The translations under genes and the position numbers were made by a program. From positions 62,001 to 126,000 of the forward strand of contig NZ_JAUKPO010000017.1 of the NCBI RefSeq assembly GCF_030503435.1: a stretch of 64,000 nt of DNA, in the 5' to 3' direction. The stretch is from Rhodocytophaga aerolata. Lineage in GTDB: Bacteria > Bacteroidota > Bacteroidia > Cytophagales > 172606-1. The first letter of the stretch is position 1; each line of letters starts with the position of its first letter. Shown here piece after piece: positions 23,301-55,563 of this stretch. The notes beneath the pieces are model-generated. The model was given only the letters and a program-made list of their open reading frames with translations. It was not told where the DNA came from and did no database searches.

Positions 23301-23771
23301 ATGGCCATCTTCAACTTAAACATCAATGGAAAGCAAAGTCAGGTGGATGTGGACCCTGCTACCCCCATGTTGTGGGTACTGCGTGATCACTTGAACCTGG
23401 TCGGCACCAAGTATGGATGCGGCGTTGCCCAATGTGGGGCCTGCACCATCCACCTGGGCAATGTAGCCACCCGCTCTTGCATGCTGCCTGTATCAGGGGT
23501 AGGCAATCAGGCTATCACGACCATTGAAGGCTTGTCAGAGAAAGGCGACCACCCGGTACAAAAAGCCTGGCTGGAGCACGATGTGGCCCAGTGCGGCTAT
23601 TGTCAGGCCGGGCAGATCATGAATGCCGCTGCCTTGTTAAAAAGCAATGCTAGTCCGAGTGATGCAGAGATTGAATCGGCCATGAATGGCAATATCTGCC
23701 GCTGTGCTACGTACTTGCGTATCAAAGCGGCCATCCATACAGCGGCCAAATTAACTACCACTAAATCCTAA
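23301..23771 (+). CDS. (2Fe-2S) subunit of a molybdenum hydroxylase (IorA-like)
   Basis: A 156-residue small subunit with two [2Fe-2S] domains: GCGVAQCGACTIHL with the upstream loop (~40-60), and the four-helix domain with QCGYCQAGQIM and NICRCATYLRI (~99-140). It passes electrons from the molybdenum subunit encoded 20 bp downstream. The pair resembles isoquinoline 1-oxidoreductase/aldehyde dehydrogenase types. No FAD subunit is visible, so electrons may go to a cytochrome, quinone or the flavodoxin-like protein. No signal peptide; it may be exported bound to its partner. Confidence 0.92.
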   Translation: MAIFNLNINGKQSQVDVDPATPMLWVLRDHLNLVGTKYGCGVAQCGACTIHLGNVATRSCMLPVSGVGNQAITTIEGLSEKGDHPVQKAWLEHDVAQCGYCQAGQIMNAAALLKSNASPSDAEIESAMNGNICRCATYLRIKAAIHTAAKLTTTKS

Positions 23772-23791
23772 TCACTAAACCCTTCTTATCC

Positions 23792-26053
23792 ATGGAATCC
23801 GTAAAAACAACGATAAATCGCAGATCTTTCTTAAAGGTTTCTGCCCTTGCCGGTGGAGGGATGATGCTTAGCTTTAGCTGGCTGGCCGGTTGTAATCCAT
23901 CTGCGCCGGAAGAGGTAGCCACTCTTCCCAAAGAATGGTTTGAGCTTAATAGCTACATCAAAATTGCAGATAATGGACTCATCACCCTGATGGCTCCTAA
24001 TCCTGAATTTGGATCGAATGTGAAAACTTCTCTGCCCATGATGGTGGCAGAAGAGTTAGATATAGACTGGAAGGATGTAATGGTAGAGCAAGCTGATTTC
24101 TTTCCGGAGCGCTATGACCGGCAGTTTACCGGAGGTAGCCTGGCCATGCAGATGGCCTGGAAACCCTTGCGCACCGCTGGAGCAACTGCCCGGCACATGC
24201 TCATTGCCGCTGCTGCACAAGCCTGGCAAGTACCTGCCGGGGAAATTACTACTGAGAACGGAATGTTGCACCACAAAGGAAGTAGCAAAAAAGCGAGCTA
24301 TGGGGAAATGGCTTCTAAAGCAGCCGGCCTTGAGGTGCCAAAAGAGGTACCTTTGAAAAATGTCAAGGATTTCAAAATTATTGGCAACTCGAAAAGAAAC
24401 GTAGAAGGAGTAAATATTGTAACTGGCAAACCCTTGTTCACCCTGGACTACAAAAGGGAAGGAATGCTCATTGCCATGATTGCCTTTCCGCCTGCCTTTG
24501 GTTTGAAAGTGAAATCGGTAGATGATGGGGCTGTTAAAGCCATGCCTGGCATCAAGGATGTATTTACGATTAAAACCCTCGCGGATGATTACGAGAGAAA
24601 CTTTTTTGACACGACCAGTTTTACTGAACTTGTCGTAGTAGTGGGAAATACCACCTGGGAAGTGATGAACGCCAAGAAGGCCTTGAAAGTAGAATGGGAA
24701 AAAATAGCTGATACGACGATTGCCTTAGCTGGCAGGGGGGGTAGTAAACAAACCGTCACCATTCCTGCAGGCCTGGAAAGCACCGAGGGGCATTTAGCGA
24801 AAATGGCCCAAATGGCCAAAAAACCTGGGAAAGAGCTTAGAAAAGATGGAGATCCGGAAGGAGTCTTTAAAAAAGCTACCAAAGTGATTGAGCGAACCTA
24901 TACAGCTCCCTTCCTGGCACACAATGCGATGGAACCGGTCAATTGTTTTGCCCATGTGACAGCAGAAAAAGCCGAAATAGTGGCTCCCATTCAGGCACCT
25001 GAAATCATTTCACAAACCCTGGTGGCTCGCCTGGGTTTGCCCAAAGAAAAAATCCATATCAAGCTAGCCAGAATGGGCGGAGGCTTTGGTCAACGGGCGT
25101 ATGGTCATCATTTGGTGGAAGCAGCAGTCATTTCTCAAAAGCTAAATGCTCCGGTCAAGTTAGTCTACACCAGGGAGGATGATATGACCTACGGCATTTA
25201 CCGGCCTACCTACACGGCCACCTATAAAGCGGCGCTGGATGAAAATAATAATATGATTGCCTATCAAGTGAAGGCAGGAGGTATTCCGGAAAGTCCGCTG
25301 GGCTTTTCCCAAAACCGCTTCCCGGCAGGTGCCGTGGATAACTACTTAGCAGAAGAGTGGGTGATTAACTCTAATATCACGATTGGGGCATTCCGGGCAC
25401 CCCGGTCCAACTTCCTTGGGGCAGTTGAGCAGGCATTTCTAGATGAAGTGGCCCAACTGGCTGGTAAAGATCCGATAGAGTTTCGCTTAGAGTTGCTGGA
25501 GCGTGCTAAGAAAAGTCCAGTAGGAAAGCAAAACGATTATGACCCGGACCGCTATGCAGGTGTGTTGAAACTTGTAAGAGATAAGTCTAATTGGAAAGGG
25601 GCTAACAAGGATGTGCACCGGGGCGTTGCGGCTTATTTTTGTCACAACACCTACGTAGCCGAGGTAGTGGATCTGTCGATAAAGGAAAACAAACCGGTGG
25701 TAGAAAAAGTATTTGCAGCCGTTGACTGTGGCATCGTAGTAAATCCTGATGCAGCCGCTAACATGGGAGAAGGAGCCATTATAGATGGTATCGGAAATGC
25801 ACTCTATGGGGAGATGACATTTAAGGATGGGGTGCCACAGAAAAATAATTTTCACAACTATCGTATGATCAGGCATAGTGAAGCACCGAAGTCCATTGAA
25901 GTACATTTTGTCAAAAATGATAAAGATCCCACTGGCCTAGGTGAACCCTTGTTTCCACCCATTTTTGCTGCCTTGGCAAATGCTATATACAAGGCGACAG
26001 GCAAGCGGGAATATTCCCAGCCTTTCCTTCAGGGAAAAGGGCCACTGGTCTAA
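23792..26053 (+). CDS. Molybdopterin-binding subunit of a xanthine-dehydrogenase-family enzyme (IorB-like)
   Basis: A 753-residue catalytic subunit. A twin-arginine signal (NRRSFLKVSALAGGGMM, ~9-25) and a Cys in LAGC direct it across the inner membrane, possibly as a lipoprotein. The Mo-cofactor motif RMGGGFGQRAYG (~428-439) and the catalytic Glu in GLGEPLFPP (~717) are present. It hydroxylates aldehydes or N-heterocycles with water-derived oxygen; the substrate is not predictable. No cofactor-insertion chaperone (XdhC or MobA type) is nearby. Confidence 0.92.
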   Translation: MESVKTTINRRSFLKVSALAGGGMMLSFSWLAGCNPSAPEEVATLPKEWFELNSYIKIADNGLITLMAPNPEFGSNVKTSLPMMVAEELDIDWKDVMVEQADFFPERYDRQFTGGSLAMQMAWKPLRTAGATARHMLIAAAAQAWQVPAGEITTENGMLHHKGSSKKASYGEMASKAAGLEVPKEVPLKNVKDFKIIGNSKRNVEGVNIVTGKPLFTLDYKREGMLIAMIAFPPAFGLKVKSVDDGAVKAMPGIKDVFTIKTLADDYERNFFDTTSFTELVVVVGNTTWEVMNAKKALKVEWEKIADTTIALAGRGGSKQTVTIPAGLESTEGHLAKMAQMAKKPGKELRKDGDPEGVFKKATKVIERTYTAPFLAHNAMEPVNCFAHVTAEKAEIVAPIQAPEIISQTLVARLGLPKEKIHIKLARMGGGFGQRAYGHHLVEAAVISQKLNAPVKLVYTREDDMTYGIYRPTYTATYKAALDENNNMIAYQVKAGGIPESPLGFSQNRFPAGAVDNYLAEEWVINSNITIGAFRAPRSNFLGAVEQAFLDEVAQLAGKDPIEFRLELLERAKKSPVGKQNDYDPDRYAGVLKLVRDKSNWKGANKDVHRGVAAYFCHNTYVAEVVDLSIKENKPVVEKVFAAVDCGIVVNPDAAANMGEGAIIDGIGNALYGEMTFKDGVPQKNNFHNYRMIRHSEAPKSIEVHFVKNDKDPTGLGEPLFPPIFAALANAIYKATGKREYSQPFLQGKGPLV

Positions 26054-27962: not shown

Positions 27963-28406
27963 CTATTGTGTAATTGGGTAGCCTTTATCAAGCCAATCTG
28001 TCTTCACATTAGTTGATAGATCCAGTAGCTGATGATGAGTGAACTGCATCTCATTTAGTAAATTAAAGGCAGGACGAACATTGGGACAGTTTTTGAAGGG
28101 GCAACATCCGCAATAAATTACAATATGCCGGTCCTTTGCCTGTTTGGCTAGAAGTTGTTTTAATTTTACAATATTCTCTTCTTCGCTTGCTGGGCCTATT
28201 TCCAGCGAACCTTTAATGAGACCAGCCGGACCTATGCTGATGATCAATGGAAGAGCCGTATCATGGCGGGCAATCATACCGGCTAAAACATTTGGCGCAA
28301 GCAATTGCTCTTTTTTCCAGGGCTCTGTTTGTTTACTGATCAAGCTGATGGAAAAAGCACTAAATAGTATAAGTCCTATCAGCAGGAGAATAGTTGTTTT
28401 TTTCAT
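27963..28406 (-). CDS. Exported rhodanese-like protein
   Basis: A 147-residue protein with an N-terminal signal or anchor (~4-24) and a rhodanese-like domain. The active-site region IVIYCGCCPFKNCPNVRPA (~95-113) supplies a Cys-rich loop in place of the usual CxxGxR loop, so its chemistry may differ. It is likely to handle sulfane sulfur outside the inner membrane. It lies between the Crp/Fnr gene (30-bp gap) and the MFS gene (58-bp gap). Confidence 0.7.
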   Translation of the reverse strand: MKKTTILLLIGLILFSAFSISLISKQTEPWKKEQLLAPNVLAGMIARHDTALPLIISIGPAGLIKGSLEIGPASEEENIVKLKQLLAKQAKDRHIVIYCGCCPFKNCPNVRPAFNLLNEMQFTHHQLLDLSTNVKTDWLDKGYPITQ

Positions 28407-28436: not shown

Positions 28437-29096
28437 TTAAAGCCGGTTCATAAATTCTTCTATGTTATCCCGGACATATACTTTGTTTCTACCTAGCTCA
28501 ATGAGTTTGAGTTTTTCCAGTTGCTTCATAAGCCTTGAAATGACTTCTCTGGAAGTTCCCAGTTCACTAGCTATTTCCTGATGAGTAATAGAAAGTTCAT
28601 TTGTTTTTAATTGCTTTGCTTTTACAATCAGGTAGCTAAGCAAACGCTCATCCATCTTCTTAAAAGCCACGGCATCTAAGGCATTTAATAATTCCTGAAA
28701 CCTGGTTTGATAAGTCATTGCCACAAAGTCTTTCCATTGTTTGTAAGCATTGGTCCAGGATTCATGCAGCCCAAAGGGGATGCCTATTACTTTGGTTTTT
28801 TCTTCTGCCACTGCCTTGATGTCGCTTTTCTGTAATCCGCTACAACAGGTAAGTGTCACGGCACAACTATCCCCTGCATCCAGGTAATACAAAAATAACT
28901 CTCGTCCATCAGGATCCATCCGCATTACTTTAATGGAACCTTGCAGAATCAAAGGCACCATTTTAATATATTGTCCCGGTTCAATCAGAGATTCTCCTGC
29001 TTCTAGCTCATAGATTTTTCCATGTTTGATAATGGCTTCAAGCAAATTTGGGTCAGTGATCGATGGTAAATAGGTTTTTAATTCTTGTATATCCAT
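28437..29096 (-). CDS. Crp/Fnr-family regulator of the sulfur region
   Basis: A 219-residue protein: cyclic-nucleotide-binding-like beta roll (~20-105), dimer helix, and C-terminal winged helix with ITHQEIASELGTSREVISRLMKQL (~170-193). The recognition helix keeps the E-x-x-S-R pattern of FNR-like proteins. Cys 78, 84 and 85 (DSCAVTLTCC) cluster where the ligand pocket or a redox/persulfide switch could sit. No FNR-type four-Cys N-terminal cluster is present, and the cAMP-binding Arg is not evident. Four matching palindromes at sulfur-gene promoters make it the likely local activator. Confidence 0.85.
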   Translation of the reverse strand: MDIQELKTYLPSITDPNLLEAIIKHGKIYELEAGESLIEPGQYIKMVPLILQGSIKVMRMDPDGRELFLYYLDAGDSCAVTLTCCSGLQKSDIKAVAEEKTKVIGIPFGLHESWTNAYKQWKDFVAMTYQTRFQELLNALDAVAFKKMDERLLSYLIVKAKQLKTNELSITHQEIASELGTSREVISRLMKQLEKLKLIELGRNKVYVRDNIEEFMNRL

Positions 29097-29187: not shown

Positions 29188-29787
29188 CTATACTTTTATT
29201 CCATATAGTCTCACGATATGTGCCTTTCCATCGTGCCCTTTTCCTTCCATTAAGATTACTTCTAGGTCATGTTCCTCTACCCAGGTGATATCGGTAAATT
29301 CATTCTTTAGCTCATTTACATCAAAAAGCAGATCTTTATTGGAGGGTCCACCTGATGTGTATTGCAACTGGTTTTTACCAAAACCCTCTAGCATTAATGC
29401 TCCCCCTTTTTGTAAAGACGCACTTAGTTGAGCATGTACGCTTGCTCTGATCGTAAGTGGAAGGTGAAAATAGATAAGTGCCACCGCATCATAAAGTTCT
29501 TTTGGGTATGGGAAGTCTAGCGCATCACAAACCGTATATTCTAAAAGAGTATTTTCGACTTTTGCTTTATTTAAGGCCTGTGCAGCGGCTATTGCACTCT
29601 GGTCAAAAGCCCTTACCTGCCATCCTTTCCTTGCAGCAAATAAGGCGTTGCGCCCTTCACCTTCACCTGGTAAAAGCAATTTTCCAGGGGATAGTATGCT
29701 TAATTTTTCCTTAAAATATTCATTTGGAGCTTTCCCGTATAGCTCCCGATGAGTAGCATATCTAGTGTTCCAAAAATTGATATTCAT
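29188..29787 (-). CDS. Class I SAM-dependent methyltransferase
   Basis: A 199-residue Rossmann methyltransferase with the SAM loop LLLPGEGEGRNALFAARKGW (~37-56), acidic motif AFDQS (~59-63) and VCDALDFPYP (~88-97). It resembles the TehB/thiopurine methyltransferase group that methylates small thiols or chalcogen compounds. It is first in a minus-strand operon, preceded by its own Crp/Fnr promoter. Substrate is inferred only from the sulfur context. Confidence 0.8.
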   Translation of the reverse strand: MNINFWNTRYATHRELYGKAPNEYFKEKLSILSPGKLLLPGEGEGRNALFAARKGWQVRAFDQSAIAAAQALNKAKVENTLLEYTVCDALDFPYPKELYDAVALIYFHLPLTIRASVHAQLSASLQKGGALMLEGFGKNQLQYTSGGPSNKDLLFDVNELKNEFTDITWVEEHDLEVILMEGKGHDGKAHIVRLYGIKV

Positions 29788-29812: not shown

Positions 29813-29857
29813 CAAAAATAGCCAATTCCTACAGAAGACTCTGTGACATTTGTTACA
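29813..29857 (-). promoter_or_regulatory. Crp/Fnr site and promoter for the methyltransferase-Crp-rhodanese-MFS operon
   Basis: On the minus strand the palindrome TGTAACAAATGTCACA (29,842-29,857) is followed by TATTTTTG (29,820-29,813). The centre-to-box distance is 29.5 bp, the same as at three other promoters here. Confidence 0.7.
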
Positions 29858-29877: not shown

Positions 29878-29922
29878 TGTAACAAATATCACTGACTTCC
29901 TTAAGTGAAGGGTCTAGTTTTG
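29878..29922 (+). promoter_or_regulatory. Crp/Fnr site and promoter for the TauE-PDO operon
   Basis: TGTAACAAATATCACT (29,878-29,893) is followed by the box TAGTTTTG (29,915-29,922). The centre-to-box distance is 29.5 bp. It mirrors the minus-strand site 28 bp away. Confidence 0.72.
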
Positions 29923-29941: not shown

Positions 29942-30742
29942 ATGACTGCTTTGGAAATTATAGGATATGCTGCATCGATCATGATCGGTCTAAGCCTTGG
30001 CCTGATAGGGGGCGGAGGCTCTATTTTAACAGTACCAGTATTAGTGTACTTACTAGGAGTGAATCCGGTACTGGCTACGGCCTACTCCTTGTTTGTGGTA
30101 GGGGCTACTTCCCTGGTGGGTTCTTTCTCCTTTATGAAGAAAAAACTTGTAGACTACCGCACAGCCTTGGTATTTGCCGTGCCTTCTTTTATCTCGGTCT
30201 TTCTCACCCGTAAATACCTGGTGCCGGCTATTCCAGATTCGCTGTTTACCATCGGCGGCTTTGAAGTGAGTAAAAGTATAGCCATTATGGTCTTTTTTGC
30301 CCTAGTCATGGTGGCCGCTTCTATCTCTATGATCAAAAGTAAACGCAAGGAAGAGGAAGCAACTGGTGAGATCAAGTATAACTATCCACTCATTGGCCTG
30401 GAAGGCGCATTGGTAGGTGTACTAACAGGCATCGTAGGTGCAGGTGGTGGTTTTTTGATCATTCCTGCTCTAGTGATACTAGCCAGATTACCCATGAAGA
30501 TGGCCGTAGGTACATCGCTTTTAATAATCGCTGCCAAATCCCTGGTAGGATTTTTAGGAGATATTAGTAATCAGCCGATCAACTGGACATTCATGCTCAT
30601 TTTTACGGCTCTATCGGTAGGTGGAATCTTTATTGGAAGCTACTTATCCAGTAAGATTAATTCAGATCTATTGAAGAAAGGCTTTGGCTGGTTTGTGCTG
30701 CTGATGGGCTTTTATATTCTGTTTAAAGAACTTGCTATGTAA
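29942..30742 (+). CDS. TauE/SafE-family sulfite/organosulfonate exporter
   Basis: A 266-residue membrane protein with about eight hydrophobic segments. The paired Gly-rich motifs GLIGGGGSILTVPVLVYLLG (~20-39) and TGIVGAGGGFLIIPALVIL (~160-178) are diagnostic of the family. These carriers export sulfite or related anions, fitting a role in removing sulfite made by persulfide dioxygenase encoded next. Its start lies 20 bp after a Crp/Fnr-controlled -7 box. Confidence 0.9.
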   Translation: MTALEIIGYAASIMIGLSLGLIGGGGSILTVPVLVYLLGVNPVLATAYSLFVVGATSLVGSFSFMKKKLVDYRTALVFAVPSFISVFLTRKYLVPAIPDSLFTIGGFEVSKSIAIMVFFALVMVAASISMIKSKRKEEEATGEIKYNYPLIGLEGALVGVLTGIVGAGGGFLIIPALVILARLPMKMAVGTSLLIIAAKSLVGFLGDISNQPINWTFMLIFTALSVGGIFIGSYLSSKINSDLLKKGFGWFVLLMGFYILFKELAM

Positions 30743-30791: not shown

Positions 30792-32138
30792 ATGAAAATA
30801 CATCAATTTGAAGATAAAGGACTTTCCCATTTTTCGTACGCGATTTTAAGTGAATGTGAATCGCAAATTATATTGATTGATCCTGCCCGTGACCCCAGCC
30901 CTTATTATGCCTATGCCGGTGAAAATGGTGCAAAGATTATTGGGGTGATCGAAACCCATCCCCATGCTGACTTTATCAGTTCGCATCTGGAGATACATCA
31001 GCTTACAGGTGCTACAATTTATACTAGTTCACTAGCCGGGGCAGATTATCCCCATCAGGCTTTTGATGAAGGGGATGTGATAAGCTTTGGAAAAATCAAG
31101 TTAAAGGCATTCAATACCCCAGGCCACTCTCCGGATGGTATCAGCATTGTGCTGGAGCACCAAGGAAAAGATAAAGCCGTATTTACCGGCGATACCCTTT
31201 TTATTGGAGATGTGGGAAGGCCTGATCTGCGGGAAAACGTAGGGAATATGAAAGCTAAGCGTGAGCAGCTAGCCAGGCAACTGTATCAAAGTACCCGCCA
31301 TAAACTCATGAAATTAGCAGATGAAGTAGTGGTGTATCCGGCACATGGATCAGGATCACTTTGCGGTAAGTCCTTAAGCGATGCCCATAGCAGCACCATT
31401 GGGGGAGAGAAGGTAAGCAATTATGCTTTGCAGCCAATGTCAGAAGAGGTGTTTGTAAAGGTGCTTCTGGAGGATCAGCCTTTTATACCTAAATATTTTG
31501 AATATAACGTAGCCTTAAATAAACAAGGAGCACCAGATTATGAACCAAGTATCAAAGCAGTCAGGCGCCTAGAGGATAACTTCAAGCCAGAGGAAGGAGC
31601 TATTATTGTAGATGCCAGAGGGCAGAAGGAATTTAAGTCTTCTCACCTCAAAGGTTCCATTAACATACAGAACGGCGCTAAGTTCGAAACCTGGCTGGGA
31701 AGTATTGTGAGCCCCCAGGAGGCCTGGTATTTAGTAGCAGACTCAGAAAAAGAGCTGAATGAGCTAATAAGGAAAGCGGCCAAAATAGGTTATGAGCTTA
31801 CCCTAAAAGGAGCCTTTTTGTACAATAAGACAGAAGGTAAAAAATCTGCCTTTTTTGATAAAGGAACTTTCCTTGATGCTCAAGATAAATTCACCATCGT
31901 TGATATACGCAATGAAAGTGAGACAAAAGAAGGGACGTTTTTCAAAGATGCCATCACCATACCCTTGCCAGAGCTGCGCGAAAGGGCTAAAGAAATTCCG
32001 GCAAACAAGCCTATTGTAGTGCATTGTGCCGGTGGGTACCGTTCAGCTGCTGGCAGCAGCATTCTGGAATCTTTAATAGGTGCAAAGGCAGAAATACTGG
32101 ATATGAGTGAAGCAGTCAATGAATTAAAGAAATCCTGA
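30792..32138 (+). CDS. Persulfide-dioxygenase-like MBL hydrolase fused to two rhodanese domains (copy 1)
   Basis: A 448-residue cytosolic protein. The N-terminal metallo-beta-lactamase domain has ETHPHADFISSH (H56, H58, D60) and FTGDTLFIGDVGRPDL, as in ETHE1-type dioxygenases that oxidise glutathione persulfide to sulfite. Two rhodanese domains follow: the first lacks a catalytic Cys, the second has VVHCAGGYRSAAG (Cys 412). It starts 49 bp after the TauE-type exporter gene, suggesting that sulfite is made and exported together. It is a paralogue of 33,840-35,255. Confidence 0.9.
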   Translation: MKIHQFEDKGLSHFSYAILSECESQIILIDPARDPSPYYAYAGENGAKIIGVIETHPHADFISSHLEIHQLTGATIYTSSLAGADYPHQAFDEGDVISFGKIKLKAFNTPGHSPDGISIVLEHQGKDKAVFTGDTLFIGDVGRPDLRENVGNMKAKREQLARQLYQSTRHKLMKLADEVVVYPAHGSGSLCGKSLSDAHSSTIGGEKVSNYALQPMSEEVFVKVLLEDQPFIPKYFEYNVALNKQGAPDYEPSIKAVRRLEDNFKPEEGAIIVDARGQKEFKSSHLKGSINIQNGAKFETWLGSIVSPQEAWYLVADSEKELNELIRKAAKIGYELTLKGAFLYNKTEGKKSAFFDKGTFLDAQDKFTIVDIRNESETKEGTFFKDAITIPLPELRERAKEIPANKPIVVHCAGGYRSAAGSSILESLIGAKAEILDMSEAVNELKKS

Positions 32139-33269: not shown

Positions 33270-33314
33270 CGTAACAATTGTCACAGACTTTGGCTCTATG
33301 GCAGGTTATCTTTG
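33270..33314 (+). promoter_or_regulatory. Crp/Fnr site and promoter for the single-domain rhodanese gene
   Basis: CGTAACAATTGTCACA (33,270-33,285) precedes TATCTTTG (33,307-33,314), a perfect TAnnTTTG box. The centre-to-box distance is 29.5 bp. Confidence 0.75.
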
Positions 33315-33359: not shown

Positions 33360-33701
33360 ATGTTTAATTTATTTAAAAATAACCCAACTACAAGTTATAC
33401 AAATGTTTCAGCCGCCGAATTTAAGCAGTTGCAGGAAGATAAAAATGCCCTCGTGCTGGATGTGCGTACAGCAGGAGAAGTAGCTGGAGGTAAAATCAAT
33501 GGAGCCAGAAATATAGATCTCATGAGTAGCAGTTTTGAAAAGCAGTTACAAGGCTTGGATAAATCTAAAACCTACCTGCTGTATTGCAGAAGTGGCAGCC
33601 GCAGTGCACAAGCCGCCAGTACAATGACAAGTATGGGTTTTGAGAAAGTATATAATCTCAAAGGAGGTATTTCTGCCTGGCCCTATGAGCAAACAAGGTA
33701 A
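33360..33701 (+). CDS. Single-domain rhodanese (sulfurtransferase)
   Basis: A 113-residue cytosolic rhodanese with the active-site loop YCRSGSRSAQAA (Cys 76). It is GlpE/PspE-like in length, without a signal peptide. It can carry sulfane sulfur between thiosulfate, persulfides and acceptors. It stands alone between a terminator and the next Crp/Fnr promoter, with its own promoter. Confidence 0.9.
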   Translation: MFNLFKNNPTTSYTNVSAAEFKQLQEDKNALVLDVRTAGEVAGGKINGARNIDLMSSSFEKQLQGLDKSKTYLLYCRSGSRSAQAASTMTSMGFEKVYNLKGGISAWPYEQTR

Positions 33702-33742: not shown

Positions 33743-33787
33743 GTGATAAATGTTACTGTAGAGGCCTAGTAAGATCGCTACCTTTGT
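33743..33787 (+). promoter_or_regulatory. Crp/Fnr site and promoter for PDO gene 2
   Basis: TGTGATAAATGTTACT (33,743-33,758) precedes TACCTTTG (33,780-33,787). The centre-to-box distance is 29.5 bp, as at the other three promoters. Confidence 0.72.
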
Positions 33788-33839: not shown

Positions 33840-35255
33840 ATGAAAATAGAACAAATATATACCGGATGTTTAGCGCAAGGCGCTTATTATATTGAATCAG
33901 CAGGAGAAGTAGCCATCATTGATCCTTTGCGGGAAACAGCCCCTTACCTGGAGAAAGCAGGGAAAGATGAGGCAGTAATTAAATACATTTTTGAGACCCA
34001 CTTCCATGCTGACTTTGTTTCCGGCCACCTGGACCTGGCCAAAGCTACTGGTGCTCCTATTGTCTATGGACCTAATGCAAGGCCAAACTTTGCGGCTTAC
34101 ATAGGCAAAGATGGCGAGGAGTTCCGCTTAGGAAAAATACAAATAAAGCTATTACATACACCAGGTCATACCCTGGAATCTACCTCTTATCTGCTCAAAG
34201 ATGAAGAGGGCAAAGAAATAGCCTTATTCACTGGAGACACGCTGTTTATTGGCGATGTAGGCCGGCCAGACCTGGCTCAAAAAGCCTTGAGTATCACACA
34301 AGAAGAACTAGCTTCTACCTTGTATGATAGCCTGAGAACCAAAATTATGACCTTGTCAGATGAGGTGATCATTTATCCTGGCCATGGCGCAGGTTCGGCT
34401 TGTGGAAAAAACATGAGTAAAGAAACCACTGATACCTTAGCTAATCAGAAAAAGACCAACTATGCCCTGCGGGAAAATATGAGCAGAGAAGAGTTTATCA
34501 AAGAAGTGACCGATGGCCTGCTTCCTCCGCCTGCCTATTTTGGCATGAATGTAAAAATGAATAAAGAAGGGTACGAAAGCTTTACGGATGTGCTCAGCAG
34601 AGGCGTACAGGCTTTAGATCCGGAAGCTTTTGAAGCAGCAGCCAATGAAACAGGCGCCTTGATTCTGGATACAAGAAAAGCCGGGGAGTTTGCCAAAGGT
34701 TTTGTACCTAATGCTATTAACATCGGTTTGGATGGAAGTTTTGCGCCATGGGTAGGAGCTTTGATACCGATGGAACAGCAGATTCTGCTCATTACCGACG
34801 AAGGCCGGGAAGAAGAAGCCGTTACTCGTCTTTCAAGAGTAGGCTACGACCATACCATCGGCTACTTGAAAGGAGGATTTACTGCCTGGATTGAGGCAGG
34901 CAAACAAATAGATACTATAGCATCTATTCCGGCAGGAGAATTTGCAGAAAGAATGAAAGATGAAAAAACAGCCTTGATCGTAGATGTGAGGAAACCGGGT
35001 GAATATCAGTCAGAGCATGTAGAAGGTGCGATAAATGTGCCATTAGATTACCTAAATGAACACCTGGCAGAGCTTTCAAAAGATAAGCCGTTTTATCTGC
35101 ACTGTGCCGGTGGCTACCGGTCGATGATTGCCGCTTCTATTCTAAAAGCCCGTGGCTGGAATAATCTGATAGACATTGCCGGAGGTTTTAGCGCCATTGC
35201 TAATACAGATGTGGCTAAAACCAACTACGTGTGTCCTTCTACCCTTAAAAAGTAA
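33840..35255 (+). CDS. Persulfide-dioxygenase-like MBL hydrolase fused to two rhodanese domains (copy 2)
   Basis: A 471-residue paralogue of 30,792-32,138 with the same order. MBL domain: ETHFHADFVSGHLD, FTGDTLFIGDVGRPDL, YPGHGAGSACGK. First rhodanese without catalytic Cys (LLITDEGREEEAV). Second rhodanese with YLHCAGGYRSMIAAS (Cys 422). A short C-terminal tail adds another Cys (NYVCPST). The first rhodanese probably serves as scaffold. It has its own Crp/Fnr promoter and is 4 bp from the porin gene. Confidence 0.9.
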   Translation: MKIEQIYTGCLAQGAYYIESAGEVAIIDPLRETAPYLEKAGKDEAVIKYIFETHFHADFVSGHLDLAKATGAPIVYGPNARPNFAAYIGKDGEEFRLGKIQIKLLHTPGHTLESTSYLLKDEEGKEIALFTGDTLFIGDVGRPDLAQKALSITQEELASTLYDSLRTKIMTLSDEVIIYPGHGAGSACGKNMSKETTDTLANQKKTNYALRENMSREEFIKEVTDGLLPPPAYFGMNVKMNKEGYESFTDVLSRGVQALDPEAFEAAANETGALILDTRKAGEFAKGFVPNAINIGLDGSFAPWVGALIPMEQQILLITDEGREEEAVTRLSRVGYDHTIGYLKGGFTAWIEAGKQIDTIASIPAGEFAERMKDEKTALIVDVRKPGEYQSEHVEGAINVPLDYLNEHLAELSKDKPFYLHCAGGYRSMIAASILKARGWNNLIDIAGGFSAIANTDVAKTNYVCPSTLKK

Positions 35256-36693: not shown

Positions 36694-37272
36694 ATGGAAC
36701 AACTCATAGAAACCATAAAACAGCCCTGGCCATGGTACGTAGCCGGACCCCTGATCGGACTTACTGTACCGCTTTTGCTTTTACTAGGCAATAAATCCTT
36801 TGGGATATCTTCTTCCCTTAGGCACATTTGTGCAGCCTGCGTGCCAGCCAAGATCCCGTTTTTTACCTATAACTGGCGCAAGGAAACCTGGAACCTGGTG
36901 TTTGTAGTAGGTATTTTGATCGGAGGATTTATTGCTACCACCTTCTTTGCCAACCCGGAAGCTATTACTGTAGCTGCTTCTACACAGGAAGACTTGAGAG
37001 CCTTAGGTATCACAAATTTTACACAACTACTACCCCAAGAAATATTCACATGGGATAACCTGTTTACAGGCAAAGGCCTGGTATTCTTTGTGCTCGGCGG
37101 ATTGCTGATAGGCTTTGGTACCCGCTATGCCGGTGGATGTACCAGTGGGCATGCCATTATGGGATTAAGCAACCTGCAGTGGCCATCCCTGATTGCAACC
37201 ATTTCCTTTATGGCAGGCGGATTTACTATGACTCACCTGCTGATGCCTTACATTATGGCATGGGTGCAATAA
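36694..37272 (+). CDS. YeeE/YedE-family transporter subunit 1
   Basis: A 192-residue membrane protein with about five hydrophobic segments. Conserved Cys occur in HICAACVP (~46-53) and in [16 protein letters not shown] (~144-159), the thiosulfate-binding type of motif in YeeE. It is half the length of full YeeE and works as a pair with the next gene, as in the PmpA/PmpB arrangement. The likely cargo is thiosulfate or a related sulfur species. Confidence 0.85.
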
Positions 37273-37335: not shown

Positions 37336-37848
37336 ATGACAATGAATAGAGAGCAAATAATGATAAAAGAACGAGTAAAAACCGCACAGCCAGTTGTTTG
37401 CGATGCTCCCAATGAACAAAAATATGGAGATAGCCCTCAAGGATTGATCAAGTATCTGATTGTAGGAATCGTGTTTGGGATTGTGTTCACCAAAGCAGAA
37501 ATTATCTCCTGGTTTAGAATACAAGAAATGTTCCGCTTACAATCCTTTTTCATGTATGGGGTGATTGGTTCAGCTATCCTGGTAGGGATTCTATCGGTAC
37601 AACTCATCAAACGGTTCAACATTAAAACCATACAAGGCGAAAAAGTAGTACTTCACGATAAAGAGTTTAGAAAAGGGCAGATCATCGGTGGCTTTATTTT
37701 TGGCTTAGGCTGGGCAATCACAGGCGCTTGTCCGGGTCCTATCTTTGCCCAGATTGGCAGTGGCTTTAGTGTGGTTCTGGTCACTCTACTAAGTGCCATA
37801 GCAGGTACCTGGCTGTATGGAAAGTTTAGCCATAAACTCCCTAACTAA
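37336..37848 (+). CDS. YeeE/YedE-family transporter subunit 2
   Basis: A 170-residue partner of the preceding gene, with about four hydrophobic segments and the motif GWAITGACPGPIFAQIGSG (~130-148), whose Cys lies in the transport path of this family. It is 63 bp downstream and followed by a strong terminator, so it ends the operon. Confidence 0.85.
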   Translation: MTMNREQIMIKERVKTAQPVVCDAPNEQKYGDSPQGLIKYLIVGIVFGIVFTKAEIISWFRIQEMFRLQSFFMYGVIGSAILVGILSVQLIKRFNIKTIQGEKVVLHDKEFRKGQIIGGFIFGLGWAITGACPGPIFAQIGSGFSVVLVTLLSAIAGTWLYGKFSHKLPN

Positions 37849-38009: not shown

Positions 38010-39098
38010 CTAGGCTAGAGAAACCCCTATCAATTTCCCAATCCCAAACGTTAAGGCAGCAGCGGCTAACCCAAATAAAACTTGTCTAAATCCTGAATAC
38101 CAGACATTTTTACCTGTAAATAAGGTGATGGCAGCACCAATCATAAAAAGGCCTATTGCGCTAAGGGAAACACTCAAAATGATGCCTTTCATGCCACTTG
38201 TAAACATGAAAGGTAAAACCGGTATCACCGCACCTATCGCAAAGAGAATGAAGGAGTATATAGCTGCTTCCATGGCAGAACCTTTTAGTTCCTCTGCATC
38301 TATTCCTAATTCTTCTTTTACTAATAGCTCATGAGCCAGGCTTTTATCTTCCATCATCTCTGCCGCCATTTGATAGGATTGTGCTTCCGGGATACCTTTG
38401 GCCATATATACTAAAGCTAGTTCCTTCTGTTCACCTTCCGGATCAGCTTCCAGCTCCTCCATTTCTATCTGCATTTGGTTTTCGTATAATTCCTGCGAAC
38501 TCTTTACCGAAATCCATTCTCCTAATGCCATAGAGAGGGAGCCTGCTAATAAGCCGGCAATTCCGGCTAACAAAACTCCTTCCTGGGAAGCCGTAGCTCC
38601 GGCAATGCCCATCACTAAACTAAAATTGGAAATTAAGCCATCATTTCCTCCTAATACAGCTGCCCGGATGGCATTTCCTCCAACAGACCGATGACGGCTT
38701 TCAAATTTTGAAATTTGTGCTCCAGTAACTTTTTTTTCTTTTTCAAGAATGGTTCTAAGTATGGATACATGGTTTGTTTCCATACCGGTCAATGGTTGTT
38801 TATTTTTTTGTTTTTGGTTAATCATGGCATTTGAAATACTCTTTTCAGTATCCATCAATGCGCCCAATACATAATTGTAGCCGAATAGTTTACCTATGAT
38901 ATTTAACGTTTTTGCTCTCCAGGAAGGCTGAAGTAAAGTAGCTAAAGGTATATTCTTCTTTTTGGCAAAGGCTTCAGCATGGCCCTTTTCGATCGCACTC
39001 ATTTGCCTGTATACACTGGAAATAGTCTCATCCGTTTCCTGATTGGCAAGCTGTTGATATAAAAACCATGCATCAATCTCAGTTTGTATATTGTTCAT
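38010..39098 (-). CDS. Ferritin-like/VIT1 fusion membrane protein
   Basis: A 362-residue protein. The N-terminal ~140 residues are a helical rubrerythrin-like domain (TEIDAWFLYQQLANQETDE, E-rich with AIEKGHAEAFAKK). The C-terminal ~220 residues form a VIT1/CCC1-type transporter with GGNAIRAAVLGGNDGLISNFSLVMGIAGA and SMALGEWISVKSSQE. The family moves Fe2+ or Mn2+; the fused ferritin-like part could bind the metal first. It is not obviously linked to sulfur and has a gap of ~150 bp to cysE. Confidence 0.88.
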   Translation of the reverse strand: MNNIQTEIDAWFLYQQLANQETDETISSVYRQMSAIEKGHAEAFAKKKNIPLATLLQPSWRAKTLNIIGKLFGYNYVLGALMDTEKSISNAMINQKQKNKQPLTGMETNHVSILRTILEKEKKVTGAQISKFESRHRSVGGNAIRAAVLGGNDGLISNFSLVMGIAGATASQEGVLLAGIAGLLAGSLSMALGEWISVKSSQELYENQMQIEMEELEADPEGEQKELALVYMAKGIPEAQSYQMAAEMMEDKSLAHELLVKEELGIDAEELKGSAMEAAIYSFILFAIGAVIPVLPFMFTSGMKGIILSVSLSAIGLFMIGAAITLFTGKNVWYSGFRQVLFGLAAAALTFGIGKLIGVSLA

Positions 39099-54063: not shown

Positions 54064-55563
54064 TTAGGCAATAACTTCTTTAATAACCTTACCATGTACA
54101 TCTGTTAAGCGGAAGTTGCGGCCTTGGAAAGCATACGTTAATCTCTCATGATCCATGCCTAATTGGTTTAAGATGGTGGCTTGTAAATCAAAAACGCTGG
54201 TACGCCCACTAATGCCATAATAGCCAATCTCATCAGTTTCGCCATGGGTGTAACCACCTTTGATACCTCCACCAGCCATCCAAACTGTAAAAGCATCCGT
54301 ATGATGGTCCCGGCCTTTAAAGGCCATCTCTTTCCCCTCCCGATTCTCCTGCATGGGTGTACGGCCAAACTCTGCCCCCCATACCACTAAGGTCTCGTCC
54401 AATAATCCTCGCATTTTCAGGTCCTGTAGAAGAGCTGCTACTGGCTTATCAATAGTGTGGCACAAGTTACCGAATCCTTTATCCAGCGCATTATTGGGAT
54501 CATTACCGTGGGAGTCCCAGCCCCAGTCAAATAGTTGCACAAACCGCACGCCTTTTTCCACAAGCCGCCGGGCTAGCAGACAATTATTGGCAAAAGAAGC
54601 TTTACCTGGCTGAGTGCCATACAAATCATGAATGTACGCAGGCTCTTTATTAATATCCATTACTTCTGGTACAGAAACCTGCATGTTAAAAGCCATTTCG
54701 TACTGCGAAATTCTGGAGATGGTTTCGGGATCTTTCATTTCCTGGTAATGCAATTGATTTACTGCATTAATGGTTTCTATTGATTTCTTACGCAAATCAC
54801 GGCTCATTCCGGCAGGATCACCCACATATAAAACTGGTTCACCATGCTGCCGACATTCCACTCCTTGATAAACCGTGGGTAAAAACCCGCTGCCATAACC
54901 GGCTTTACCGGCATCCGGAGCCTTGCCTCCGGAAAGCAACACGATAAAACCTGGCAGATTTTCATTTTCTGAGCCCAGACCATAGGTGGCCCAAGCCCCT
55001 ATACTAGGCTTGCCAAGGCGGGCATTACCAGTTTGCATCAGTAGTTGGGCAGGTGCGTGATTAAACTGGTCGGTATACATAGCTTTGAGAAATGAAACCT
55101 CGTCAACCATTTTACTAAATTCAGGTAAGTGTTGCGACACCCAGGCACCAGATTGTCCGAATTGTTGAAATTTTGCCTGAGGTCCAAGCATTTTGGGTAC
55201 GCCTTTAATAAAGGCAAACTTTTTACCTTCCAACAGCGAAGGTGGGCAATCCAGGCCATTGAGTTTTTGTAGCACAGGTTTGTAATCGAACAGTTCCAAT
55301 TGGGAAGGTGCACCGGCCATATGCAGGAAAATAACTGACTTGGCTTTTGCTGGAAAATGCGGCTCTAAAGGCATAAAAGGTTTGCTTAGGTCACGAACCA
55401 GCCCACCTGTCGGTGATGATGAATCATTACCGGATTTTAGCCAGTTACAACCAATCAAAGATGTTAAAGCTGCTGCTCCTAATCCAGTCATACATTTCCA
55501 GAGAAAATGCCTGCGTGTCTGATATTCGGCCTTGCGTACCTGTGCTTCTTCAAAAATATTCAT
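54064..55563 (-). CDS. DUF1501-family exported protein
   Basis: A 499-residue protein with a Tat-type signal (RRHFLWKCMTGLGAAALTSLIGC, ~17-39) and the DUF1501/sulfatase-fold motifs (HMAGAPSQLELFDYKP; DWGWDSHGNDPNNALDKGF; WGAEFGRTPMQENREGKE; GRDHHTDAFTVWMAGGGIKGG). DUF1501 genes nearly always pair with PSD1 genes, as here. The enzymatic role is not established. Confidence 0.92.
   Translation of the reverse strand: MNIFEEAQVRKAEYQTRRHFLWKCMTGLGAAALTSLIGCNWLKSGNDSSSPTGGLVRDLSKPFMPLEPHFPAKAKSVIFLHMAGAPSQLELFDYKPVLQKLNGLDCPPSLLEGKKFAFIKGVPKMLGPQAKFQQFGQSGAWVSQHLPEFSKMVDEVSFLKAMYTDQFNHAPAQLLMQTGNARLGKPSIGAWATYGLGSENENLPGFIVLLSGGKAPDAGKAGYGSGFLPTVYQGVECRQHGEPVLYVGDPAGMSRDLRKKSIETINAVNQLHYQEMKDPETISRISQYEMAFNMQVSVPEVMDINKEPAYIHDLYGTQPGKASFANNCLLARRLVEKGVRFVQLFDWGWDSHGNDPNNALDKGFGNLCHTIDKPVAALLQDLKMRGLLDETLVVWGAEFGRTPMQENREGKEMAFKGRDHHTDAFTVWMAGGGIKGGYTHGETDEIGYYGISGRTSVFDLQATILNQLGMDHERLTYAFQGRNFRLTDVHGKVIKEVIA

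Follow-up and report, generated by a model that had tools for sequence, protein, structure and literature searches.

A Crp/Fnr-type regulator gene lies among sulfur genes in a 64,000-nucleotide stretch of the Rhodocytophaga aerolata genome (the window), and its product carries three closely spaced cysteines that a first-pass annotation had proposed as a persulfide switch. The locus raises two questions: which genes does the regulator control, and what do its cysteines sense? The protein is well supported as a dedicated activator of persulfide-detoxification genes, and members of its family very probably switch on genes that clear toxic sulfur in many bacteria. With moderate confidence we adopt the whole model, a Crp/Fnr activator of persulfide and sulfide detoxification genes that would sense persulfide through Cys78.

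The crp gene is a real open reading frame (ORF) on the minus strand (positions 28437-29096) that encodes 219 amino acids (P0001). Pfam locates a cNMP_binding domain (PF00027) at residues 30-107 with 30.2 bits (cut-off 27.5) and an HTH_Crp_2 domain (PF13545) at residues 150-210 with 48.7 bits (cut-off 27). The annotated Crp/Fnr identity is thus borne out by two domains above cut-off, a cNMP-binding-type β-roll and a Crp helix-turn-helix (HTH), and Foldseek matches the protein to 4ev0, 3dv8, and CRP. The product does not reach the NCBIfam equivalog cut-off for cAMP-CRP (59.7 versus 266 bits) or that for NtcA, the next score after CRP (42 versus 244.95 bits). No ArsR, CsoR, or σ54-activator domain is present among its Pfam and NCBIfam matches, which means that it is not a regulator of the SqrR/BigR, CstR, or FisR type. 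Cys78, Cys84, and Cys85 are the only cysteines in the protein and none precedes residue 78, so the FNR-type N-terminal cysteine set for a [4Fe-4S] cluster is absent, as had been claimed.

Genes with predicted roles in persulfide metabolism surround crp. On the plus strand, Pfam identifies a TauE/SafE-family exporter (29942-30742), a metallo-β-lactamase-rhodanese fusion (PDO1, 30792-32138), a single-domain rhodanese (33360-33701), and a second such fusion (PDO2, 33840-35255), followed by two halves of a YeeE-type sulfur transporter, one a Sulf_transp protein (36694-37272) and the other DUF6691/Sulf_transp (37336-37848). The nearest solved relatives of PDO2 are the metallo-β-lactamase/rhodanese proteins 3tp9 and 3r2u, with the EthE1 persulfide dioxygenase and BpPRF further down, and both fusions are called persulfide dioxygenase (PDO)-type from their sequences. 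On the minus strand, the first gene in the methyltransferase-crp direction encodes a TehB-like SAM-dependent methyltransferase identified by Pfam (29188-29787). Directly downstream of crp is the gene for a divergent rhodanese-like protein (27963-28406, minus strand) that matches Pfam Rhodanese below cut-off (E = 0.046) and contains the stretch CGCCPFKNCPNVR. The earlier description of the regulator as sitting among persulfide dioxygenases and rhodaneses agrees with the two fusions, the rhodanese, and the TauE, YeeE, and DUF6691 genes. A search of the genome with an SQR query from locus L137, run without a positive control, found no SQR.

The window genome (9.07 Mb) has a second crp copy (G000:C22) that is 89% identical and divergent from a TauE gene, a PDO-type ORF of 369 aa, a rhodanese, and two YeeE halves. 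This PDO-type ORF (locus L133, 7501-8610, minus strand) differs at its end from the 448-aa PDO1 and looks shortened, and the second-copy locus is without PDO2. Elsewhere in the window, two genes at positions 23301-26053, one for a [2Fe-2S] protein and the other for a protein that binds molybdopterin cofactor, likely make up an oxidoreductase; an aldo/keto reductase and a cupin are encoded upstream of the pair. The product of positions 38010-39098 belongs to the VIT1 family and has a weak match of the rubrerythrin type at its N terminus.

To collect homologues, 395 genomes of the phylum were searched at the protein level; 153 of them gave matches at E ≤ 1e-20, with at most seven candidates scored per genome. 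Together with the window, 120 loci picked by hand among the matches listed gave 122 distinct homologues. As controls, 40 further Crp/Fnr genes were drawn from the sampled genomes; L301 was removed as a Cys78 family member, leaving 39. A PDO-type gene is located within 8 kb of 51/122 family members and 0/39 controls (Fisher p = 4.8e-8, not corrected for relatedness), and the members with a PDO nearby span 27 of 66 genera. No PDO, YeeE, TauE, or SQR gene was found within 8 kb of the 39 control genes, and two of these have a rhodanese. Unsupervised clusters of neighboring proteins, labelled by inspection and by reference to the window genes, contain PDO at 45 of the 122 loci, rhodanese at 41, TauE at 34, thioredoxin at 27, the YeeE halves at 26 and 23, OsmC at 13, and SQR at 7; at the controls rhodanese occurs in 3/39 and the other named clusters in none. 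Genes resembling cytochrome bd subunits are near the regulator in 9/122 loci, mostly of the CCA/CCT/CCS type (such as L164 and L229), which would fit a link to sulfide-resistant respiration.

A perfect-dyad search of intergenic DNA detected GTAAC-N4-GTTAC in 18 of 45 loci whose regulators have all three cysteines, compared with 0.7 expected from controls. Longer dyads (6-mers) gave nothing for the all-three-Cys and C-only groups. The dyad was generalized to GTRAC-N4-GTYAC, the probable operator of the crp product, and the sulfur region of the window contains two exact and two one-mismatch copies. Operator 1 (exact; 29843-29856, minus strand) is upstream of the methyltransferase and crp genes and ends 22 bp before TATTTTTG (29813-29820, minus strand), a -7-type box of the methyltransferase(-crp) promoter. 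Operator 2 (one mismatch; 29879-29892, plus strand) is upstream of TauE-PDO1, 22 bp before the box TAGTTTTG (29915-29922, plus strand) of the TauE promoter. Operator 3 (exact; 33271-33284, plus strand) has the same spacing to the rhodanese promoter box TATCTTTG (33307-33314, plus strand), as does operator 4 (one mismatch; 33743-33756, plus strand) to the PDO2 promoter box TACCTTTG (33779-33786, plus strand). All four operators, each within one mismatch of the consensus, are thus followed after exactly 22 bp by TAnnTTTG, which we take to be the -7 element of Bacteroidota promoters. In ten Markov shuffles of the window, such an operator-box pair was absent at up to one mismatch and occurred once at up to two. 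Two further one-mismatch operator matches in the window are at 54457 and 60467. The exact operator is not enriched genome-wide (13 occurrences versus 45 for a reversed control pattern); the box follows at 22 bp in just three of the 13, which belong to the promoters of methyltransferase-crp, rhodanese, and the second-copy TauE.

Relatives outside the phylum were sought by tblastn in plasmid records, of which the window protein matched 91 and a Ruegeria relative 31; 15 were examined. Eleven are from Pseudomonadota (Paracoccus, Ruegeria, Thioclava, Chelativorans, Pseudosulfitobacter, Azospirillum, and Thiothrix), with the usual gene order crp, DUF2892, YeeE, DUF6691, and MBL, and SulP further on. 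An MBL-fold hydrolase gene is beside the regulator in 8/11 and was not seen in the stretches from Azospirillum, Thiothrix, and one Thioclava, whose stretch ends at the record start. The palindrome GTGAC-N3-GTCAC is located between crp and the next gene in 10/11 records (six exact, four with one mismatch; none in L234), and 200 shuffles of each gap never matched it in any of those 10 gaps. The center of this palindrome is 3 bp (L233-L237, L240, L241, and L327-L330), compared with 4 bp in Bacteroidota. A Bacillota relative from Pusillibacter has both Cys78 and Cys84 equivalents and is without a sulfur operon.

The same neighborhoods and operators could belong to a regulator that responds through its thiol site to stress of a general kind (disulfide, peroxide, electrophile, or nitrosative), with the persulfide genes forming only part of its regulon. 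The thioredoxin and OsmC neighbors are consistent with such a role, as is the plasmid-borne relative from Paenibacillus (Bacillota), which has one cassette cysteine and a peroxiredoxin neighbor. There is no PDO within 8 kb of 71/122 members, so some members may sense something else. Against this explanation, all operators in the sulfur region of the window, like the three boxed exact ones of the genome, are at sulfur or crp promoters, and no catalase-type cluster is among the top neighbor clusters, which were named by eye from sequence. We regard general stress sensing as unlikely, though it keeps some weight. Loci with Cys78 only (L153, L167, L195, and others) often neighbor OsmC-like and thioredoxin-like genes rather than PDO, and these members may perhaps sense something else.

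The annotation located the three cysteines within the β-roll; this holds, and alignment with CRP and a structure model place them more exactly in the phosphate-binding cassette, the cyclic-nucleotide-binding loop of CRP, on which the stretch DSCAVTLTCCSGLQKS aligns. CRP holds cAMP with the cassette residues Glu72 and Arg82. The crp product has Val80 and Lys90 at these positions in the alignment, and column 80 is Met, Ile, Leu, or Val in 121/122 members, so the Glu/Arg pair of a cAMP-binding cassette is missing. The AlphaFold model of the product (pLDDT 86.7, built with 39 sequences) has Cys78 after strand 66-73 and before a short helix at 80-83. Residues 81-90 of the cassette are its least certain part with a mean pLDDT of 60, so the distances between Cys78, Cys84, and Cys85 cannot be judged from the model. 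Structural comparison with Foldseek and VIA-align returned the usual Crp/Fnr proteins and did not pick out a single functional relative.

Conservation separates the three cysteines. Loci that had been found with a Cys-containing pattern were left out of these counts. Cys78 (codon 28863-28865, minus strand) is present in 122/122 sampled homologues, which is beyond chance, Cys84 (28845-28847, minus strand) in 70/122, and Cys85 (28842-28844, minus strand) in 49/122; all three occur in 45/122 and neither Cys84 nor Cys85 in 48/122. The position 78 column is a gap in the 38 control proteins aligned to the family (L278 was omitted because an antisense ORF had been picked). A loosely written regular expression scored a cysteine elsewhere in the cassette loop in 3/38 controls; it failed to locate the loop in 8/38 and hit a segment outside it in some others. 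Two proteins of another Crp/Fnr type, L300 and L305, have a cassette cysteine one position off (SVCELLLF) and no sulfur genes within 8 kb.

A conserved triad beside PDO genes, the check that the annotation had called for, was not found: among the 51 members that adjoin a PDO, Cys78 is present in 51/51, Cys78 and Cys84 in 38/51, and all three in 24/51. Neither Cys84 nor Cys85 occurs in 13/51, and two of these (L131 and L152) are beside a second copy with all three. The presence of a second cysteine changes five times on the tree and has no link there to a PDO neighborhood, with four independent pairs that mostly show no difference. The triad was rejected as the conserved unit on these frequencies, and the existence of homologues without a second cysteine argues that a triad is not required; the window protein itself has the potential bridging partners. 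All 11 proteobacterial plasmid relatives have Cys78 and Cys84 and none has Cys85, so Cys85 looks like a Bacteroidota addition. Cys78 is thus the core residue, Cys84 is a frequent partner, and Cys85 was gained late by some Bacteroidota.

One invariant cysteine fits a binding site as well as a modification site. The cassette could bind a small sulfur molecule (thiosulfate, sulfite, or a thiol persulfide) noncovalently, with Cys78 as a contact or structural residue. A lone Cys78 suffices in 48/122 members, Ser91, which aligns with a CRP cassette residue, is kept in 114/122, and YeeE transporters of the thiosulfate type are common among the neighbors. An invariant cysteine in a variable, flexible loop would be more typical of a reactive thiol, and we consider noncovalent binding unlikely.

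The link between regulator and operator was measured across the loci by cysteine class. The operator is upstream of sulfur genes in 27/77 cases for regulators with all three cysteines, 11/39 for those with Cys78 and Cys84, and 4/47 for those without Cys84; before other genes of the same loci the counts are 25/544, 6/216, and 7/644, and before genes of control loci 1/541. An operator within one mismatch is found at 29/51 PDO genes within 8 kb of a regulator and at 0/17 PDO genes in genomes without one (Fisher p = 1.2e-5). The regulator-free genomes had no match at E ≤ 1e-20, and 12 of 20 such genomes carry the 17 PDO genes; in one (L338), a PDO gene has a two-mismatch operator with a 22-bp box. 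Near members without Cys84, PDO genes have the operator in 2/11 and the operator with box in 0/11, and TauE genes have the operator in 4/11. Six PDO-adjoining loci without Cys84 and Cys85 (L130, L132, L174, L188, L194, and L206) are the single match in their genomes, and the operator is before TauE in four, with an exact 22-bp box in two. The rarer PDO operator near members without Cys84 may stem from operons that begin with TauE or from a weaker link.

Residue 184, readable in 74/76 loci with operators, was considered as independent support from operator/recognition-helix covariation. Val184 loci have GTAAC half-sites in 138 cases versus 12, and Glu184 loci are mixed (38 versus 42). The Fisher value of 1e-13 is not trustworthy, since residue 184 changes once among the 74 loci and provides only one independent evolutionary contrast, and the covariation was rejected as independent support. 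The pairing of Val184 with GTAAC and of Glu184 with GTGAC mixtures fits a predicted role of the recognition helix, and the proteobacterial relatives with a printed region have Glu184 and GTGAC half-sites, in keeping with the Bacteroidota pattern.

The spacing between operator and promoter box indicates the direction of control. For 119 operators upstream of sulfur genes in all loci, the gap to TAnnTTT[GA] is 22 bp in 73, 23 bp in 9, and 21 bp in 2; with the Cys-biased loci excluded (n = 45), it is 22 bp in 28, 23 bp in 3, and 21 bp in 1. A gap of 22 bp centers the operator near -41, the position from which class II activators of the Crp type contact polymerase, and we infer a class II activator geometry for the predicted operators. 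A repressor that occupies the promoters until persulfide releases it, like SqrR or CstR, would also fit an operator at the position of the upstream promoter element, where bound protein could block polymerase. The single, fixed spacing is expected of an activator in contact with polymerase and unneeded for a repressor, which argues for an activator and makes repression quite unlikely.

Ligation of a metal, haem, or Fe-S center that reports H2S, CO, NO, or O2 as in CooA or FNR is very unlikely: CooA (1ft9) is a structural match (Z = 15.0, rmsd 4.1, 198 aligned) whose haem is ligated by a cysteine in the corresponding region, but 48/122 members would offer a single thiol, no histidine is invariant in the cassette, and the invariant His172 is in the HTH domain.

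Operator, spacing, and regulon rest on sequence statistics, and on sequence grounds the regulon is close to settled. Shared operators and a neighborhood absent from control Crp/Fnr genes tie the regulator to the persulfide genes and point to control of persulfide and sulfide detoxification. In the proposed activator mechanism, a dimer would occupy a GTRAC-N4-GTYAC site centered some 41 bp ahead of the start and, bound there as a class II activator, would switch on the genes for PDO, rhodanese, TauE, and YeeE. It would probably also activate its own gene through the methyltransferase-crp promoter, with putative cotranscription across a 91-bp gap.

Judged by their families, the products of the regulated genes would eliminate persulfides and export or transport sulfite and sulfur of the thiosulfate type, which makes sulfane sulfur the probable natural inducer. 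The cyclic-nucleotide cassette appears to have been turned into a thiol site, and Cys78 in the emptied cassette would be the natural receptor of sulfane sulfur. Persulfide sensing through Cys78 is likely: this invariant residue would probably be persulfidated by polysulfide or a low-molecular-weight persulfide, and where Cys84 (or Cys85) is present the modification may lock as a di- to tetrasulfide bridge. Modification of Cys78 would reorder the flexible cassette and shift the long dimer helix to the DNA-binding form; the sensing chemistry and allostery of this model are inferred. A broader proposal is tentative and, in our estimate, somewhat doubtful: that in a Crp/Fnr branch of Bacteroidota, Pseudomonadota, and Bacillota the cassette is a reactive-sulfur receptor built on one invariant cysteine, that its members are class II activators, and that one persulfidated thiol suffices with no obligatory bridge, unlike in SqrR, CstR, and FisR.

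Known Crp/Fnr proteins resemble the regulator in part. NtcA and cAMP-CRP share its fold, with scores far below their NCBIfam cut-offs; they recognize palindromic sites of the GTA-N8-TAC kind and act from a class II activator position near -41.5. FNR shares the fold and HTH (VIA-align Z about 17), and the crp product lacks its N-terminal cysteines. The likeness to the CooA-type haem sensor is a fold match only. The nearest solved sequence, 3dv8 from Eubacterium rectale (E = 3e-19; 5e-29 with a profile), is a Crp/Fnr protein titled 'putative transcriptional regulator' in its record, and it has cysteines at the Cys78 and Cys84 positions without a Cys85 equivalent. Searches of the open-licence PMC literature, some of which may have missed the spelling with a slash, turned up neither a persulfide sensor of the Crp/Fnr family nor one from Bacteroidota. 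The Acinetobacter baumannii Crp-like protein A1S_1182 is reported to be highly persulfidated in sulfide-treated cells, with a functional effect described as unknown; it differs in being close to Escherichia coli Crp and Vfr and in having its cysteine opposite the ligand pocket (PMC7315123).

If the model is true, sulfur sensors also exist in the very large Crp/Fnr family, whose best-known signals are cAMP, O2, and CO, and the Bacteroidota gain a candidate persulfide sensor for which operator and targets are defined. With a single cysteine, a 14-bp site, and four promoters, the system is tractable, and a thiol that persists through gain and loss of its partners tests the minimum chemistry of persulfide sensing. 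The persulfide sensors named in two reviews belong to repressor families (SqrR/BigR of the ArsR family and CstR of the CsoR family) or are a σ54 activator (FisR) (PMC9774590, PMC12170894). As described there, these proteins are, as is proposed for the crp product, cysteine-based regulators of PDO, rhodanese, SQR, and TauE-type genes, and they use two or more conserved cysteines joined by di- to tetrasulfide links (PMC9774590, PMC12170894). The crp product differs from all three in its Crp/Fnr fold, its predicted activator geometry, and its single universally conserved cysteine.
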